This document shows positions 3,060 through 49,778 of a stretch of DNA of 64,000 nucleotides, piece by piece. The stretch comes from an uncultured Flavobacteriales bacterium (lineage in GTDB: Bacteria > Bacteroidota > Bacteroidia > Flavobacteriales_D > Crocinitomicaceae). The translations under genes and the position numbers were made by a program. Location of the stretch: positions 1-64,000 of the forward strand of contig CAJQPA010000012.1 of the NCBI GenBank assembly GCA_905480145.1. Direction: 5' to 3'. How positions within the stretch are numbered: the first letter of the stretch is position 1; each line of letters begins with the position of its first letter. Below the pieces are notes generated by a model, which saw nothing but the letters and a program-made list of their open reading frames with translations, was not told where the DNA came from and made no database searches.

Positions 3060-3893
3060 ATGAAAAAAATAGTATTAGGATTGGCATTTTTAGGATTCAT
3101 CGGTGGAGTTCAGGCCCAAGATGCCGCGGATAAGAAAGTTCAGGCTGGATTAGTAGTTGGAGGAGGTATGAATTTCGCGAAGATGGGGACTAAGAGAATA
3201 GCTTCAGGAGGAGCTGGCGCTGATTGGACAATTGGTGCTAATTTAAATTATACGTTTAACGAAACAGTGGGCATAACAACTGGTGTTGAATTTGATTTTT
3301 CTACTTTAAAATATGCTGCCGTAGACAATGTTTATTATAGATATGATGACAATACAATATTGACACAAGATGAAGCTTCCGATGCAGAAGGTACTTTTCT
3401 AATGAGCTCTAGAAGTCAAAAACCTATTTACCTAACAATTCCCGTTATGGCTTTGTTTAGAACTAATTTTATTGGTTATTTCCGTTATTTCGGAAAGTTC
3501 GGTTTGCGTTCAAGTTTTTTACTATCTAATGCTGTAACAGATGAAGGAATTGCATACACTAATGGAGTAGGATTAGATGACCCTTTCAATAACTCAAATG
3601 CTGTAGGAACTCCTGCTACCAACGAAAACATGACGCATAGCAAAAATGATTTGGACTTCTTTAAATCTTCAGTAGGAGTAGCTGGAGGGGCAGAATGGAA
3701 TTTTACAGGATCAACATGCCTTGTAGCAGAAATTGGTTACTATTATGGATTTACTGATATCCATTGGGATAGAAAAGATGAAAATTCTTCTTTAGCAACT
3801 TCTAATGCTGGTGAGGTAGATGACGCTCCTTCTTTCTTCAACAATGCAGTGAAGCAATCGCAGTTGATGTTTAAAGTTTCAATTTTATTCTAG
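3060..3893 (+). CDS. outer-membrane beta-barrel protein, PorT-like family
   Basis: The protein has a signal peptide (MKKIVLGLAFLGFIGGVQAQ) and then alternating aromatic/aliphatic strands ending in LMFKVSILF, with a terminal aromatic typical of outer-membrane barrels. It fits the broad PorT-like family (OMP_b-brl_2); about 277 residues. PorT/SprT itself is a type IX secretion component, but I cannot tell this copy from the many generic members. A GTG at 3057 is in frame, but the ATG at 3060 gives the standard signal peptide. It sits divergent from gldB and 4 nt before nadE, so it is co-transcribed with nadE. Confidence 0.75.
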   Translation: MKKIVLGLAFLGFIGGVQAQDAADKKVQAGLVVGGGMNFAKMGTKRIASGGAGADWTIGANLNYTFNETVGITTGVEFDFSTLKYAAVDNVYYRYDDNTILTQDEASDAEGTFLMSSRSQKPIYLTIPVMALFRTNFIGYFRYFGKFGLRSSFLLSNAVTDEGIAYTNGVGLDDPFNNSNAVGTPATNENMTHSKNDLDFFKSSVGVAGGAEWNFTGSTCLVAEIGYYYGFTDIHWDRKDENSSLATSNAGEVDDAPSFFNNAVKQSQLMFKVSILF

Positions 3894-3897
3894 AAAA

Positions 3898-4692
3898 TTG
3901 AACTCAAAAAAAGTAGCACAACATATTGTTTCTTGGTTAAGTGACTATTGTGATTCTGCAAGAGCGCAAGGATTTATCGTTGGTATTTCTGGGGGCGTTG
4001 ATTCTGGATTAACCTCAATGTTATGCGCAATGACTGGTAAGAAGGTTTTACTATTAAGCATGCCTATCCGCCAAACAACTGCTGAATATTCTAGAGCAAA
4101 AAACCACATCACGGATTTAACTGAAAAGTTTGACAATGTTGAAGTTTACGATATCAATTTAACGGATACTTTCTCGGAATTTGAAAAGAATATGCCTTTT
4201 GATCTTCAAGAGCAACATTTGGCTATGGCCAATTCAAGGGCTCGTTTGAGAATGATGACACTTTACGCTCTAGGACAAGCTAATGGAGTTTTAGTAGCAG
4301 GAACCGGTAATAAAATAGAAGATTTTGGTGTTGGCTTTTATACAAAGTATGGAGACGGTGGTGTTGACTTAAGTCCAATTGCTGACTTAACGAAAACGCA
4401 AGTATGGGATTTAGCGCGCGAAGTTGGTGTTATTGATGAAATTGTAGATGCTAAGCCAACTGATGGTTTATGGGAAGATGGTAGAAGTGATGAAGATCAA
4501 ATTGGAGCTACTTATCCTGAATTAGAATGGGCCATGGAATTTGTTGCTTCTGAAAATAAGAACCTAGACACGAACTTATCGGAACGTCAAAAAGAAGTTC
4601 TCACCATTTACAAGAAATTTAATCGAGCCAACCAGCATAAAATGATTCCTATTCCAGTTTGTGAGATCCCAAATGAGTTGTTAGAGAAGTAG
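3898..4692 (+). CDS. nadE: NAD synthetase, ammonia-dependent type
   Basis: The enzyme adenylates and amidates nicotinate adenine dinucleotide to NAD in the cytosol. The P-loop GISGGVDSGLTSML at residues 28-41 is the N-type ATP pyrophosphatase signature; GTGNKIEDFGVGFYTKYGDGG and SPIADLTKTQVW are NadE blocks. At 264 residues it lacks the glutaminase (nitrilase) domain, so it must use ammonia. Translation begins at TTG (3898): this aligns with the family N-terminus, and the next ATG (residue 40) would remove the P-loop. nadE next to gldB is a known Flavobacterium arrangement. Confidence 0.92.
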   Translation: MNSKKVAQHIVSWLSDYCDSARAQGFIVGISGGVDSGLTSMLCAMTGKKVLLLSMPIRQTTAEYSRAKNHITDLTEKFDNVEVYDINLTDTFSEFEKNMPFDLQEQHLAMANSRARLRMMTLYALGQANGVLVAGTGNKIEDFGVGFYTKYGDGGVDLSPIADLTKTQVWDLAREVGVIDEIVDAKPTDGLWEDGRSDEDQIGATYPELEWAMEFVASENKNLDTNLSERQKEVLTIYKKFNRANQHKMIPIPVCEIPNELLEK

Positions 4693-7948: not shown

Positions 7949-9709
7949 TTAGAGTTTAAAGGAACTATTAATAGGACGAATAGATCCATCAGGAAACTTC
8001 ACTTTACATCTAAACGAAATTATTGTACCTCGCGGTGCTTGCCTGATCAAAGAAAGAGCCGCAGAAATATCATTGCTCCTTCCTTTAAGTGGTGCTCCTG
8101 GTCCAGCTCCACACTCCCAACTGATTACTTTGAAATCAACATTTAATGGAATCTCCGGCGGGTACTTAGCAAAAAGCTTCGTCGCCCTTACATTTGGTCT
8201 AGAATTCTCATCCGCACCGCCCCAAAATATTGAAGGTTTTGGTAAATTCCGAACTTTGTAGCTCAACGTTTTTAAAACCTTTTGCTCACCAGTATTTGAG
8301 TTGACACCAACAACCTTCAAAACAGCCGTTCTTGCCCTTCCTGTTGGTTTTACAACCCACCCATCAGATGATTTAGAAATCGAAACATTGGAACCACTTA
8401 ATTTAGTAATATCAAAACCAGAAGCGGTTGCGCGAACATTATTTTTAAACCCACGATACAAAGTATTCATGTCTGTCAATTCAATAGAACCAGATGGTTC
8501 CATAATCACAATGTCATGAGACCATTTCTCCTCCTTCCATTGTCCAGATTTCTTTTGAACAGACACCGTTCCTGAAAGTGACATTGAACTTCCTCCGGCC
8601 TTAAATTTTATTTCGCCTTGCCCATTAGCAATGTTAATTTGCGCGCCATCCATATTATTAATAGTTACACGCGGCTGCTTATCAGTGTCAAAAGCTGCCA
8701 TCATAACATTAACACTGACATCATCCCCTCTATTTGCCACTGCCGGTCCATATGCTAGAGGAATCACTTTATTAAAAGAATAATCACCTCCCGTAACTCT
8801 ATTACGAATAAGAGTAACCGCCTGCGATCTAGCAGCTAGGATGTCATTTTGCAAGGAAGTTAAAGATGCAATTGCTGCTACAGCTGGAGAATGATCAAAT
8901 GTTTTTCCTAACCAGTGAACATCATTGACGCCATTGGCCGATGATAATTCATTCTTGGTAAGAATACTATAAATTTCTATAATATCTTCTTGATCATCAG
9001 GATGCACTTTGTTTTTATTAATTTCTTGTTTTAATAGTTCTTTGAGCATGCTTTGAGACGCGAAAGAATTAAAATGTTCCGTTTTAAATGAAAATCTCTG
9101 ATCATAAACGGCTTTCTTATTATCATTATACATCACATGCGAACTAGCAATCTTAGAAGTTAACTCTAATCTATAATCATTAATTGAATTCCATAACTCA
9201 AGGCCATTACCAGATGGCGCTTTAAGATCAGTAGCATCACCAAGCATAATACGCATGGGATCATCGAATTTATCTTTGCTTTGCACATAACTTAGATTCA
9301 TCCGAATAGGTTTGATACCTTTCACATTAGGATCCGTCACAAGGATTGATTGAACTTTACCTACAGTATTTACATCCTCACCTATATCTTCAAGAATTTG
9401 TAATTTAAGCGCATCAATCATTTTGATACGTGTCTCGGTCATTTCATCGATTTCAGCAACGGTACGAACTAGTAGTTTTGCTTTATCAGCTCTTTGGATA
9501 TTAGACCTATCCATTGATACCTCAGTCAACTCAGACTTCTTCTCATCCCCACGATACAGTTGAGTAAGATTGGAAGTTTGCATATTCTCTTCAATAGATA
9601 CAAAAGCATCCAAAATAGATTTAGATACGTTTAACGCCAGTAATGCTGTTAGCACGAGATACATCATCCCGATCATTTTTTGTCTTGGTGTTTCCTTTCC
9701 TCCTGCCAT
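7949..9709 (-). CDS. GldM paralogue, type IX secretion motor subunit
   Basis: The 586-residue protein parallels the canonical GldM at 10854-12611 along its whole length: near-identical N-terminus (GGKETPRQKMIGMMYLVLTA, with the motor residue Arg9), one membrane helix at about 12-33, then the four-domain periplasmic stalk, sharing blocks such as TFDHSPxVAAIASL, YSFNKxxPLAYGP and KLFAKYPPEIPLN. The first periplasmic domain (about residues 45-200) is the most diverged. GldM dimers thread a GldL pentamer and transmit proton-driven rotation, so this copy could form alternative or mixed dimers with GldL. It follows gldN but is separated from it by a strong terminator. Confidence 0.88.
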   Translation of the reverse strand: MAGGKETPRQKMIGMMYLVLTALLALNVSKSILDAFVSIEENMQTSNLTQLYRGDEKKSELTEVSMDRSNIQRADKAKLLVRTVAEIDEMTETRIKMIDALKLQILEDIGEDVNTVGKVQSILVTDPNVKGIKPIRMNLSYVQSKDKFDDPMRIMLGDATDLKAPSGNGLELWNSINDYRLELTSKIASSHVMYNDNKKAVYDQRFSFKTEHFNSFASQSMLKELLKQEINKNKVHPDDQEDIIEIYSILTKNELSSANGVNDVHWLGKTFDHSPAVAAIASLTSLQNDILAARSQAVTLIRNRVTGGDYSFNKVIPLAYGPAVANRGDDVSVNVMMAAFDTDKQPRVTINNMDGAQINIANGQGEIKFKAGGSSMSLSGTVSVQKKSGQWKEEKWSHDIVIMEPSGSIELTDMNTLYRGFKNNVRATASGFDITKLSGSNVSISKSSDGWVVKPTGRARTAVLKVVGVNSNTGEQKVLKTLSYKVRNLPKPSIFWGGADENSRPNVRATKLFAKYPPEIPLNVDFKVISWECGAGPGAPLKGRSNDISAALSLIRQAPRGTIISFRCKVKFPDGSIRPINSSFKL

Positions 9710-9819: not shown

Positions 9820-10842
9820 TTAGAACGACCAAACATCGTGTTCAATATTTCTAATTTCATTTCTAATCTTTTGTGATTCATACAATGCATCAACTCCTGC
9901 CTGGTACGTTTCAATTTTTCTATCGTGTATGTTACTCTCTTTATAAATAACAGAACTGAACCTACGTTTCCAGAATAAATCATCAAAACTCATCCATTGT
10001 GCATCATTCGATTCATTGTAAACAAAGTAATTATTGAATACAAATCTACAATGAGGAAAGTATAACCAGAATAATTCTCTCATTCCACTAATACTCTTCT
10101 CACCTTGAGAATCTTCAGTTACTTCATATACAACTGGCGCAATTGCAAGAATACGAACATCTAAAACTGATCTTTCTTTATCAAAGAACCAATCTTCTTT
10201 AATTCTATATTGAACAATATCTTTTGATGTATACCACATTGTATCTGGTGGTGGATACTTAAAAGTTGAAGAACCATCCGGCAATGTCAATATTATTTCA
10301 TAACCATCATCATCTACTTCCGCTATATCACTTTGAGGACCTAATTTACCCAAAAAGTAAACCATTTCTTCTCTGTAAATAGAATCTGTATCATATGTTA
10401 ATCCTGGCTCAGGATCAACAGGGTACTTCAACTGATATCCATCCCATTCACCAAATTGGTTTAAAGGATTATAAGGAGAGAATACTCTTAAATCACCTTT
10501 GATGATGTGCGTACGTATAACAGTCCAAAGACTCCAACGTGTAGCATTTTTCACCCAGTCACCTCCACCAGTAATCTCATCTAGCGGATAATATAGTGTG
10601 TGATTAATCTTTTCTCTTAAGTCTAGATATTCAAATGCTCTTCTGCTCCAAATGGCATCTGCCTCTCTCACGTGCTCATAAGGAATCATTCTTTTGGTAG
10701 GAATATGTTCTTGAATGAACACCCCATCAATGATTCCTTCTGTAGGAACATTCACAGGCCCACCATCGATATCCGGTTGAGCATATGCTGTAGCAGTTCC
10801 GAAGAACGCTACTGTACATATTGAATAAATTAAACTTCTCAT
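9820..10842 (-). CDS. gldN: gliding/type IX secretion protein GldN
   Basis: The 340-residue periplasmic protein has a signal peptide (MRSLIYSICTVAFFGTATAYA). Typical GldN blocks follow: RRAFEYLDLREKINHTLYYP, SLWTVIRTHIIKGDLRVFSP, the KEDWFFDKERSVLDVRI segment, and WLYFPHCRFVFNNYFVYN-type sequence before SFDDLFWKRRFSSVIYKESN. GldN (PorN) associates with the lipoprotein GldK in the periplasmic ring under the outer membrane and contacts the GldM tip. It begins 11 nt after gldM and is the last gene before a strong terminator. No gldO-like second copy is present. Confidence 0.95.
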   Translation of the reverse strand: MRSLIYSICTVAFFGTATAYAQPDIDGGPVNVPTEGIIDGVFIQEHIPTKRMIPYEHVREADAIWSRRAFEYLDLREKINHTLYYPLDEITGGGDWVKNATRWSLWTVIRTHIIKGDLRVFSPYNPLNQFGEWDGYQLKYPVDPEPGLTYDTDSIYREEMVYFLGKLGPQSDIAEVDDDGYEIILTLPDGSSTFKYPPPDTMWYTSKDIVQYRIKEDWFFDKERSVLDVRILAIAPVVYEVTEDSQGEKSISGMRELFWLYFPHCRFVFNNYFVYNESNDAQWMSFDDLFWKRRFSSVIYKESNIHDRKIETYQAGVDALYESQKIRNEIRNIEHDVWSF

Positions 10843-10853
10843 AATTCTAAATT

Positions 10854-12611
10854 TTAAATTTTAAAAGCACCTGCTTTTTTTCTACGAATTCCGTCGGGAC
10901 CAACTACCGTAGCAATAAAACTTACAGTCATTCCTGAACGCGCTTGTCTTATTAACGACGAAGCAGCAGAAATGTTACTACCAGACCCAGAAGGCGGTCT
11001 ACCTGGTGCTCCAGGTATTGTACATTCCCAAGCAACGATCTTAAATGTTGCATTTAAAGGAATCTCAGGTGGGTATTTAGCAAAAAGCTTTGTTCCATTC
11101 TTGTTTGCTTTTGTTCCAGATTTAGCACCACCCCAATACAATTCAGGATCAGGTAAGTTACTAACTCTATATTTTACTTTTTTCAATTGCTTAGATTCTC
11201 CAGTTGCCGAATTTTTACCCGTTACTGTTAAATAAGCTTCTCTTGCTCTACCAGTTGGTTTAGCTATCCATCCTGTACCTGATTTCGAAAGAGCAACTCC
11301 ACTTCCTCCAAGACTAGTTTGATCATAACCAGAAGCCGTAGCCTCTACTTTATTCGCATAACCTCTATACAACATGTTCATTTCTGGTAATTCAATAGAG
11401 CCAGCAGGTTTCATGATAATAATCTCATGCGACCAGTCTTCTTTCTTTTCAACACCTGATTTGTTCTTGATTGAAACAGTACCTTTCAATGACATTGTAG
11501 AACCACCAGCAGTCAATTTTACAAGACCTTGTCCGTTTCCAGGATATTCAACTGTTGCACCTTCATAACCATCTACAGTTACTTTAGGCTGATTGTCTGA
11601 ATCAAATGCAGCCATCATAACTTGCAATTCAACCGCATCACCACTATTTGAGACCATTGGTCCGTATGCTAATGGCATAATCTTGTTAAAGCTATATTCA
11701 CCAGTAGACACTTTCGATTTCCAATGTGCCAAAGATAAAGCTCGTGCAGCAAGAACATCTTGTTGCATAGAAGACAATGAAGCTATCGCAGCAACTAGAG
11801 GCGAATGATCAAAAGTTTGACCAATCCAATGCACACCTTCCATTCCATGAACAGTGTTTATTTCCTTCTTCGTCATTCCCATATAGAGATCTTGCAATAC
11901 TTGCTTATCATCTTTATGAACCGTCTTAATGTCGATCATTTTTTTAACCTGCGCTGATAAATCTGCGTTACTCTTAAAATCGTTAATATCTTTAACATTC
12001 ACTTTATAATCGGTTTTACCCCATTTATATGTACCTGTCAATTCAACAATTTTCTTTCTGTAAGCGTTAAAATCATTCCAAAGTTTATCACCGACACCCG
12101 ATGGGTTTTTGATATCTTCACCGATAATCTCATGCATCGGAATATCATATTGATCCTTTGCTTGAACCGCCATTAAATTCATTCTAACTGGCAAAGCACC
12201 TCGAGACTTATCATACTTAGTCCAAATGATAGTTTCCTCATCTTTGTCTTTCATCGTAGTTGCATCCTCACCACTTTTGGTCATGATGTCTACTTTGATT
12301 TCATCGATTTGCTTAATCATCTTAGCAGCCTCATCATCAATTAAAGCCATTTGCTTTAATACATAATTTAACTTCTCAAGTTTCGCTTTATTTTCAGCAT
12401 CATTTTTAGTAGAGCTTTTTTCTGACGCTACATCGGAAATAAATCCAGTTCCTCTATCGAACTGAACAATATTCCCTTTCTGTGTATTCTCCTCAATCGC
12501 TACGAAAGCATCAAGGATAGATTTAGATACATTCAGGGCTAAAAGAGCGGTAAGTACTAGGTACATCATCCCGATCATCTTTTGCCTTGGGGTTTCTTTT
12601 CCTCCTGACAT
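10854..12611 (-). CDS. gldM: gliding/type IX secretion motor protein GldM
   Basis: The 585-residue inner-membrane protein has a short cytoplasmic N-terminus with conserved Arg9, a single membrane helix (about 12-33) and a long periplasmic stalk of four domains, matching the standard GldM/PorM size of about 510-590. Family blocks include GVHWIGQTFDHSPLVAAIAS, YSFNKIMPLAYGP and LFAKYPPEIPLNATFKIVAW. Its position between gldL and gldN identifies it as the canonical copy. With GldL it converts proton flow into rotation that drives type IX secretion and gliding. Confidence 0.96.
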   Translation of the reverse strand: MSGGKETPRQKMIGMMYLVLTALLALNVSKSILDAFVAIEENTQKGNIVQFDRGTGFISDVASEKSSTKNDAENKAKLEKLNYVLKQMALIDDEAAKMIKQIDEIKVDIMTKSGEDATTMKDKDEETIIWTKYDKSRGALPVRMNLMAVQAKDQYDIPMHEIIGEDIKNPSGVGDKLWNDFNAYRKKIVELTGTYKWGKTDYKVNVKDINDFKSNADLSAQVKKMIDIKTVHKDDKQVLQDLYMGMTKKEINTVHGMEGVHWIGQTFDHSPLVAAIASLSSMQQDVLAARALSLAHWKSKVSTGEYSFNKIMPLAYGPMVSNSGDAVELQVMMAAFDSDNQPKVTVDGYEGATVEYPGNGQGLVKLTAGGSTMSLKGTVSIKNKSGVEKKEDWSHEIIIMKPAGSIELPEMNMLYRGYANKVEATASGYDQTSLGGSGVALSKSGTGWIAKPTGRAREAYLTVTGKNSATGESKQLKKVKYRVSNLPDPELYWGGAKSGTKANKNGTKLFAKYPPEIPLNATFKIVAWECTIPGAPGRPPSGSGSNISAASSLIRQARSGMTVSFIATVVGPDGIRRKKAGAFKI

Positions 12612-47175: not shown

Positions 47176-47832
47176 GTGCAATTGATAGATTTTATATTTG
47201 AACTTGGCGTATTATTCGCAGTTTACGGATTTCTTTGGGGGATTTTTGACATTATGATCAAAGCATTAAGTGCGGGGCGAATTCGTTCTGTGGCTGAAGT
47301 GTATATTCTCCGATTGATTAAATACTTCTTTTTAGTCAATGTCACCTTCTTATTTTGCTTTGAAAATAACTCTTCTGCCATGCCTGAATTGAGTAAGTTT
47401 ATTTTTGCTGGACTGATATTGTTAACTTATTTCGTAGGTAAACTTCAACAAAACAAAACAAAATCCGTGTTTTTCAATATTGCGGGGCGTGGAATGCCAA
47501 ATACCCAAAACAACTTTAATTTTAGCGCGGAAGCAATGATTATTGGTGTTTCTCTTGCTGTATTTATTTTATTTTGGTTTTCCCCAGAATATGCAATCAA
47601 TCCTATTGCAGAATGGTTTCGTGAGAAAACGATTGCTATGGAAAAAGCACCCGTTTTTGGATTCATTTTTAAAATAGTAGGATTCTTCTTTTTGCTGAGT
47701 TTAATCTTTAAGATGGTCAATACTGTATTATTCTTCCTAAATGGAGGTCGTCTCAAAACCCCTTTACACAATAACACAGGAGGAGATCAATTGGATAATG
47801 ATGATCACTTCGATGATTATGAGGAAGTATAG
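47176..47832 (+). CDS. multi-pass membrane protein with acidic tail
   Basis: The 218-residue protein has five predicted membrane helices (about 4-24, 45-64, 71-87, 118-136, 160-188) and an acidic hydrophilic tail (GGDQLDNDDHFDDYEEV). No family is recognised. Start is GTG at 47176 or TTG at 47182. The last 89 bp, coding for the tail, are repeated at 49112-49200 on the far side of the PAS kinase gene. Confidence 0.75.
   Translation: MQLIDFIFELGVLFAVYGFLWGIFDIMIKALSAGRIRSVAEVYILRLIKYFFLVNVTFLFCFENNSSAMPELSKFIFAGLILLTYFVGKLQQNKTKSVFFNIAGRGMPNTQNNFNFSAEAMIIGVSLAVFILFWFSPEYAINPIAEWFREKTIAMEKAPVFGFIFKIVGFFFLLSLIFKMVNTVLFFLNGGRLKTPLHNNTGGDQLDNDDHFDDYEEV
47744..47832 (+). repeat. 89-bp direct repeat, copy 1 (3' end of the membrane gene)
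   Basis: Matches 49112-49200 at 80 of 89 positions by my reading. It includes the last 28 codons and the stop of the membrane-protein gene. Confidence 0.9.
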
Positions 47833-47905
47833 GGCATAATACAACTTCAATTTTACCCTTTCAAAACCATAAATTATTGTTACCTTTAAAAACAGCCATA
47901 ATTAT

Positions 47906-47925
47906 ATGAATAACATTTTATTCAT
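47906..47925 (+). other. perfect hairpin upstream of the PAS kinase
   Basis: ATGAATAA-CATT-TTATTCAT, an 8-bp stem 12 nt before the TTG start; a possible operator or RNA hairpin. No T-run. Confidence 0.35.
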
Positions 47926-47936
47926 GTTAAAATCAT

Positions 47937-49091
47937 TTGCCATTGAAAAAATACAAATCCATATCCGACCTTAAGCTTCTTAATGAAAGTGTCTTGGAGG
48001 GTTCACTTGCTGGATTCTGGGATTGGAATATTCTAAAAAATGAAGAATACTTAAGCCCAAGATTTAAAGAAATGTTCGGTTATGATGATCATGAAATGGA
48101 AAACAAACCTGAATCTTGGCAAAAGATAGCCTTTCAAGAAGATTTACCCGAAATGTTTGAAAACTTTAATAAACATGTAAGTTCTGCTGGCAAAATACCA
48201 TTTAAATCCATTGTGCGTTATCATCACAAAAATGGAAAGACGGTTTGGGTTAGATGCAACGGTAAAGTAATTGAGTGGGGGGAGAATGGTGAGCCAATTA
48301 GGGCAGTTGGTTGTCATATAGATATAACCGAAGAAAAAGAGCTAGAATTAAAATTAAAAAACGCTTTAACCGAAAGAGAAGTCTTATTGAAGAAAGAGAA
48401 AGAGTTGGGGTTACTGAAATCGAGCTTTGTTTCGATGGCATCTCATCAATTTAGAACCCCCCTAGCAGTTATCCAGTCAAATGCACAATTATTTGAAATG
48501 TTGGTAGGAAGTGACCAAGAAGTTAAAGCGGAAAAGTATCTAAAAATATCAACCCGCATTACAGAGGAGATTTCTAAAATGACAGCATTAATGGATGACG
48601 TTCTTATTCTTGGTAAATTAACCTCAGAAAATGTTCATTATGACCCTCAAGAATGCGATTTATTTGAATTCTGTAATGTACTTATTGATCAATTCAATTT
48701 AATACAAGAGGATGGCAGAAAGTTAGATTTTGTAGTAAAAGGGAAACCTTATAATGTTGAAATAGACCATAAATTGCTCACGCATTCTTTATCTAATATA
48801 ATTAGTAACGCGTTTAAATATTCTGTTGGAAAAGCGAACCCTTCGCTAAAATTGACTTATGAGGAAAAAGAATTTAGTTTAACTGTTTCAGACAAAGGTA
48901 TAGGCATTCCAAAAGAAAATATGGAAGATTTACTGCTACCTTTTTTTCGTGGCAATAATTCAGTCGGAATTAAAGGTACCGGATTGGGCTTGAGTATCGC
49001 AAAAGAATATCTTGATATTAATAAAGGAATCGTAATTATAAACTCTACTGAAGGTGTGGGAAGTAGTTTTGAGATGAAGTTTCAAAAGTAA
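47937..49091 (+). CDS. PAS-domain sensor histidine kinase
   Basis: The 384-residue soluble kinase has a PAS/PAC domain (about 15-135; GFWDWNILKNEEYLSPRFKE, AVGCHIDITEEKE), a coiled linker, HisKA with His170 (SFVSMASHQFRTPLAVIQ) and HATPase with N box SNIISNAFKYS, G1 VSDKGIGIP and G2 GTGLGLSIAKEY. No membrane helix, so it senses a cytosolic cue. Start is TTG at 47937; the only nearby ATGs are out of frame, and the first in-frame ATG would cut into PAS. No response regulator is adjacent. Flanked by the 89-bp direct repeat. Confidence 0.9.
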   Translation: MPLKKYKSISDLKLLNESVLEGSLAGFWDWNILKNEEYLSPRFKEMFGYDDHEMENKPESWQKIAFQEDLPEMFENFNKHVSSAGKIPFKSIVRYHHKNGKTVWVRCNGKVIEWGENGEPIRAVGCHIDITEEKELELKLKNALTEREVLLKKEKELGLLKSSFVSMASHQFRTPLAVIQSNAQLFEMLVGSDQEVKAEKYLKISTRITEEISKMTALMDDVLILGKLTSENVHYDPQECDLFEFCNVLIDQFNLIQEDGRKLDFVVKGKPYNVEIDHKLLTHSLSNIISNAFKYSVGKANPSLKLTYEEKEFSLTVSDKGIGIPKENMEDLLLPFFRGNNSVGIKGTGLGLSIAKEYLDINKGIVIINSTEGVGSSFEMKFQK

Positions 49092-49111
49092 TAATTTGAT
49101 AATAGGGTATT

Positions 49112-49200
49112 GAGGTCGTCTCAAAACGCCTTTACACAATAACACAGGAGGAAATCAATTAGACAATGATGATCACTTCGATGATTATGAAGAGTTGTAA
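49112..49200 (+). repeat. 89-bp direct repeat, copy 2
   Basis: Second copy of the membrane-gene 3' end. Nine differences from copy 1; most fall at synonymous codon positions, and the stop is TAA instead of TAG. Confidence 0.9.
49114..49200 (+). pseudogene. 28-codon remnant of the membrane-protein gene
   Basis: The aligned frame reads GRLKTPLHNNTGG, then NQLDNDDHFDDYEEL and a stop. It is preceded directly by an in-frame TGA and has no start codon, so it cannot be expressed. Its last bases overlap the 3' end of coaE on the other strand. Confidence 0.75.
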
Positions 49201-49778
49201 ACTTCTCTTAAAGAATTTACCAATTCTTCCACTTGACCTATCAAAAATTCTTTTCCATTATTTTTGACCACAAAATCAGCCAGAGGAATTTTCTTTTCAT
49301 CTGGCCATTGCTTACCTATCCTTGACTTAACTTCTGATTTTTTTATCCCGTCTCGTTTCATCACTCTGCTAATTCGAAGATCTTCATCAGCTGTTACCAA
49401 CACCATTTGATCAAACTGTTTCTCTCCGCCAGTTTCAAATAGAATAGCTGCTTCATTAAATACAATTTCTTTATTTTGAGACTCGCAAAATATCTCGAAA
49501 TCTTTTCTAACCTGAGGATGTATAATATTATTCACTTTTTTAAGTGCTACATCGTCATTAAAAATTATGCTTGCTAAATATAATCGGTTGAGCTGATTAT
49601 TAATGTAAAGCTCTTTTCCAAACAATTCAATCAATTGTGACCTCACTTTTGGATTTTCCTGGACAATTCTTTTTGCTTCTATATCTGAATTGTAAACTGG
49701 ATAATTCATTGCAGTTAGAACCTTAGAAACAATACTTTTTCCAGATCCAATTCCACCAGTAATTCCAACTTTGATCAT
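49185..49778 (-). CDS. coaE: dephospho-CoA kinase
   Basis: The 197-residue kinase catalyses the last step of CoA synthesis. P-loop GITGGIGSGKS (6-16), substrate block YNSDIEAKRIVQ (DAD-like Asp), the HPQVRKDFEIF helix and LILVTAD-type strand QMVLVTADEDLRISRVMKRDG are present. The last codons overlap repeat copy 2. It follows siaC by 3 nt and ends the siaB-siaC-coaE operon. Confidence 0.95.
   Translation of the reverse strand: MIKVGITGGIGSGKSIVSKVLTAMNYPVYNSDIEAKRIVQENPKVRSQLIELFGKELYINNQLNRLYLASIIFNDDVALKKVNNIIHPQVRKDFEIFCESQNKEIVFNEAAILFETGGEKQFDQMVLVTADEDLRISRVMKRDGIKKSEVKSRIGKQWPDEKKIPLADFVVKNNGKEFLIGQVEELVNSLREVYNSS

Follow-up and report, generated by a model that had tools for sequence, protein, structure and literature searches.

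The window analysed here, a 64-kb stretch of a probably metagenome-derived genome, contains a histidine kinase gene, probably an insertion, between a membrane-protein gene and the dephospho-CoA kinase gene coaE, and an 89-base direct repeat bounds the insert. The features of the locus are as follows.

47176–47832, forward strand: membrane-protein gene, single-copy in relatives and without a Pfam family; repeat copy 1 contains its final 87 bases (29 codons, stop included)
47744–47832, forward strand: repeat copy 1, which forms the present end of the membrane gene
47833–47942, forward strand: leader of 110 bases, AT-rich (GC 0.245)
47943–49091, forward strand: PAS-HisKA-HATPase kinase gene, a fusion, with a likely TTG start at 47943
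47943–48389 (end approximate), forward strand: PAS half, with about 72% amino-acid identity to the PAS domain of a PAS-HisKA_2 kinase of the same genome (G000:C8) and 65–72% to its orthologues
48377–48389, forward strand: switch zone similar to both parents, a 13-base overlap in the helix before HisKA
48377–49111, forward strand: HisKA-HATPase half with a short 3' flank, 82% identical in DNA to the first kinase of the G000:C57 array (alignment 48377–49119)
49106–49119, forward strand: right joint, with the pattern AT.GA.GT.GT common to the kinase flank and the membrane gene (8/11)
49112–49200, forward strand: repeat copy 2, in all probability the former end of the membrane gene, whose frame is not translated here any more
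49185–49778, reverse strand: coaE; its last 16 bases lie within repeat copy 2

The two copies of the repeat align without gaps and are identical at 80 of 89 positions, and the coordinates and identity given for them in the first-pass annotation are correct. The longest run of identity between them is 26 bases. The next-best match to the repeat in the window reaches 44/89, the best one on the reverse strand 41/89, and the flanks of the two copies are unrelated (32 of 100 bases identical upstream, 26 of 100 downstream). Read in the frame of the membrane gene, the copies give GRLKTPLHNNTGGDQLDNDDHFDDYEEV and GRLKTPLHNNTGGNQLDNDDHFDDYEEL, each followed by a stop; they differ by five synonymous codon changes, the stop codon (TAG/TAA) and two amino-acid changes, in agreement with the earlier statement that most differences are synonymous. 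Copy 1 ends in EEV, the commonest form in relatives, and copy 2 in EEL, the difference lying in the last sense codon. Read backwards in the coaE frame, copy 1 would give a TSS end, as found in coaE of several relatives. The in-frame TGA that precedes copy 2 and the overlap of copy 2 with the end of coaE, both noted previously, are real; the overlap measures 16 bases (49185–49200).

Such direct repeats are rare in the genome. We scanned 1.6 Mb of its 2.44 Mb for non-tandem direct repeat pairs of 40–400 bp that are at least 80% identical and less than 10 kb apart. Besides the 89-bp repeat, four further pairs were found; two long repetitive genes contain three of them, and the fourth lies at the starts of genes in a kinase array. 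No other gene-end duplications around inserts were found in the scanned 1.6 Mb.

The membrane protein is present in 42 of the 60 genomes searched, which range from the same genus to the same order. The gene order in the genus is S46 peptidase (reverse strand), membrane gene (forward strand), coaE, siaC and a DUF6272 gene (all reverse strand); siaC and the DUF6272 gene are reduced or missing in a few same-genus genomes. Kinase-free relatives with the membrane gene and coaE side by side, which the first-pass annotation had proposed to look for, account for 26 of the 28 informative same-genus genomes. The distance between the two genes in these 26 genomes varies from a 26-base overlap to 98 bases apart, and the gene ends overlap in 20 of them, by 4–26 bases. 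The membrane protein of the nearest relative compared is about 61% identical. Copy 2 overlaps coaE as the gene ends of relatives do, which argues that copy 2 is the old end, still in its place, and copy 1 a new one. Copy 2 together with coaE would thus represent the ancestral arrangement, and the kinase together with copy 1 the addition. Kinase-free relatives with end-to-end genes being the rule, the suggestion of an insertion that rebuilt the gene end is supported.

The same comparison bears on a tandem duplication of the membrane gene, in which the kinase afterwards took the place of all but the last 89 bases of the second copy. Two gene ends as seen here would result, and the kinase arrays of this genome show that duplications occur. 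However, every relative with the membrane gene has it only once: among the 60 genomes searched, none of the 42 with the gene has two full copies, and a second match to the protein occurs only in the window's own genome, where it is copy 2. Moreover, the flank shared with the kinase array comes so close to copy 2, within a few bases, that no further remnant would fit, no other membrane-gene sequence is present, and an extra unseen step is required. We therefore disfavor this scenario, one of the two initially offered, as very unlikely.

The two exceptions among the informative genomes, G014 and G020, have other genes between the membrane gene and coaE: an adhesin-like protein of 840 residues in G020 (L108:5709-8231) and an ORF6N-like protein in G014 (L003:2354-2872), both named by eye. 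The spot takes inserts repeatedly. Neither of these inserts has flanking repeats, and both were rejected as further cases of the arrangement in the window.

The TTG at 47943 matches the starts of homologous genes and is the likely start of the kinase; the listed open reading frame begins at TTG 47937. The protein contains PAS, HisKA and HATPase_c domains above the Pfam cut-offs and no further Pfam domain, and no response-regulator gene lies beside it. The PAS half comprises the first 149–151 residues. Its parent family consists of PAS-HisKA_2 kinases of about 340 residues, found in the own genome (G000:C8) and throughout the family, and only such kinases match the PAS half at 65% identity or more. 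In every PAS-HisKA_2 kinase checked, an HHRVKNN motif directly follows the linker. A tree built for the PAS half did not place it. The catalytic half is the sister of the C57 kinase in its tree (support 100/100). The inserted kinase is a fusion of parts of two kinase genes, judging from the different nearest families of its halves, a PAS-HisKA_2 kinase for one and a C57 array kinase for the other. No single gene matching both halves well was found in 240 genomes of the family or 399 genomes of the order.

Histidine kinases evolve by domain shuffling, in which a HisKA-HATPase half already present acquires a new sensor at the linker helix. In comparison with this general process, both parent families, a 13-base switch zone and the landing site can be named here.

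A gene of another family of the order (G272:C230, about 3517–4590, reverse strand; L233) has a similar PAS domain (58%) on an unrelated HisKA half. It represents an independent fusion involving the same sensor family, and was rejected as a full-length relative of the window kinase, its catalytic half being only 28% identical.

The right border of the insert is placed within a few bases. Similarity to C57 extends 28 bases beyond the kinase stop codon and fades at 49106–49119, where copy 2 starts, the alignment running 8 bases into the copy. At the other side, the 110-base leader has no relative: its best similarity elsewhere in the genome covers 26 bases and is not convincing, and it does not resemble the leaders of PAS-HisKA_2 kinases. 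The left joint therefore cannot be placed, and the left border is set only by the end of similarity. A promoter scan gave consensus matches only.

An assembly artefact joining two strains or loci was considered, since the genome comes in 63 contigs, is about 90% complete and is the one assembly in which the arrangement is seen. Misassembly driven by the repeat is unlikely, because identical runs between the copies do not exceed 26 bases and no long repeat covers the right joint, where the similarity is imperfect and only 11 bases long. In addition, the kinase and both neighboring genes are intact open frames, and the contig is at least 64 kb long with conserved gene order on both sides. We regard an artefact as highly unlikely.

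The direct repeats at both ends, the rebuilt gene end and the position beside a stop codon could also point to a mobile element or an integron-like cassette with gene 3' ends as integration sites, which it restores, a likeness drawn in the first-pass annotation. However, the insert is a single kinase gene in 1.37 kb, without a transposase or integrase, as had been noted for the integrase. Elements of this type would be expected to recur, and the search for the same kinase flanked by the tail, suggested at the outset, was negative: neither the tail sequence nor the kinase unit was found at another place in this genome or in its relatives, and none of the 240 family and 399 order genomes has the kinase as a unit. 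It was also not found in IMG/VR viral contigs, and plasmid matches to the kinase are distant, with less than 40% identity among those listed. A mobile element is hardly credible here.

Synonymous differences give some indication of the relative age of the parts. Between the two tails, 5 of 26 synonymous sites differ, and between the catalytic half and C57, 33 of 157; the proportions are equal (Fisher p = 1), so that the two duplications could be of one age, 26 sites giving little power. The PAS half differs from C8 at 42 of 89 sites (p = 3e-5 against the catalytic half), which suggests that it split from the C8 gene of the same genome long before the catalytic half was duplicated. As this split is far older, the parts apparently do not all stem from present genes copied on a single occasion. 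The tails differ by 2 amino acids in 28, a small number given that selection has not acted on most of the length of copy 2 (expected non-synonymous share 0.63; P(<=2 of 9) = 0.017, P(<=3) = 0.07, depending on how the changes are counted). This gives a hint that each served as a genuine gene end until recent times, as would be the case after an import from a sister species. The previous claim that copy 2 was once under protein selection holds in the sense that copy 2 appears to be the ancestral gene end; the synonymous differences themselves are no proof of it, because changes in a copy 1 under selection would also be synonymous.

An import of this kind would start from a sister species that already had the membrane gene, the kinase and coaE in this order; its DNA would enter by one-sided homologous recombination through the membrane gene, with an illegitimate join just upstream of the resident tail. 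We consider this possible, though not likely. Under the import, and with the same reservation, copy 1 could be the gene end of the donor and copy 2 that of the resident. The equal synonymous divergence of the tails and of the catalytic half from C57 is what one between-species distance would produce, and the mostly synonymous differences in both copies also fit. Such events, including duplications of 109–950 bp, were described for E. coli conjugation (PMC3240628). The homology-facilitated illegitimate recombination reported there resembles the proposed import in having one homologous and one non-homologous joint, and related events left a duplicated stretch of the target; the likeness is limited here by the lack of a known donor and by the unmapped left joint. 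Against the import, the kinase occurs between the membrane gene and coaE in none of the relatives (34 same-genus genomes), and the original insertion is merely shifted to another species. In GC content and third-position GC the insert is like the host, although a sister species would not be separable by this measure.

We consider it probable that a 1.37-kb segment carrying the fused kinase entered the site where the membrane gene and coaE overlap tail to tail, with duplication of 89 target bases. The repeats at its ends are target sequence that occurs only once in relatives. In the kinase, the helical linker is the point at which a PAS sensor of one family meets the catalytic half of the array type; the segment would have entered the overlap with doubling of the 89 bases, one copy on each side. 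Copy 2 would remain the old shared end that still closes coaE, and copy 1 would become the new end of the membrane gene. The joints could have formed where short similarities (11–13 bases) exist, through template switching or non-homologous joining, with no dedicated enzyme. The duplication may have arisen by a widely staggered break, by template switching, or by one-sided homologous recombination with donor DNA. We speculate that a single replication accident with several template switches could have built the fused kinase and doubled the overlapping gene end in one step, which seems rather unlikely; if true, a new gene for signalling arose right between two overlapping convergent genes, with neither harmed.

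A tail-to-tail overlap should bar insertion, and a duplication longer than the overlap spares both genes. Both proteins stay complete only if the insertion duplicates the overlap, which would account for the survival of this form. Since an insertion between overlapping genes otherwise damages one of them, the particular feature of the present case is its target.

Insertion with long target duplication, a known and rarely described route of gene movement, is the description that fits the finding best. In the accounts that refer to Nobusato et al. (2000, Gene 259:99), namely PMC1643837, PMC4978471 and PMC3031569, such insertions are known mainly for restriction-modification genes of Helicobacter pylori. 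The locus shares with the cases outlined there a non-transposon gene between long direct repeats of host sequence and an empty site in other genomes; it differs from them in its cargo, a sensor kinase, in the phylum, and in the target, a tail-to-tail gene overlap. Transposed genes of Arabidopsis (PMC2869330) are similarly bounded by direct repeats longer than 30 bp and have a matching empty orthologous site, but this is a eukaryotic case for which excision and ectopic recombination between repeats were proposed. The locus provides a dissected case of a fusion-made sensor kinase inserted without a transposase, with the parent families, the switch zone and the empty site in hand.

The first DHp helix sets the choice of partner by histidine kinases. 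The window kinase and the C57 kinase show no difference over 36 residues of this helix, so the former probably signals to the regulators of the C57 array, which comprise one LytTR regulator (G000:C57:2000-2749) and one receiver protein (C57:10526-10933). It is likely a soluble sensor acting on one or both of them, and its predicted input is probably whatever the PAS domain senses. The spacing from the PAS domain to the phospho-accepting histidine has a phase used by natural kinases, which is consistent with a working fusion, if weakly, as three of the seven phases occur.

The kinase arrays at G000:C57:1-11072 (L100) and G022:C127 (L102) contain four and six histidine kinases, respectively, that share one HisKA-HATPase module and differ in their sensors (TPR, PAS, membrane segments). 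Such arrays in the genus would be a good place to study how bacteria make new sensors. A haem-NO-binding gene adjoins the kinase array(s) at L100/L102. A 198-bp repeat (88%) at L100:8304-8500 and 10246-10442 covers the start and about 55 codons of two array kinases, a partial gene-end duplication, and a stop codon splits one G022 array kinase (L102:9850-12051). In the window itself, two putative GldM-like paralogues (7949–9709 and 10854–12611) are located near putative GldL- and GldN-like gliding-motility genes.
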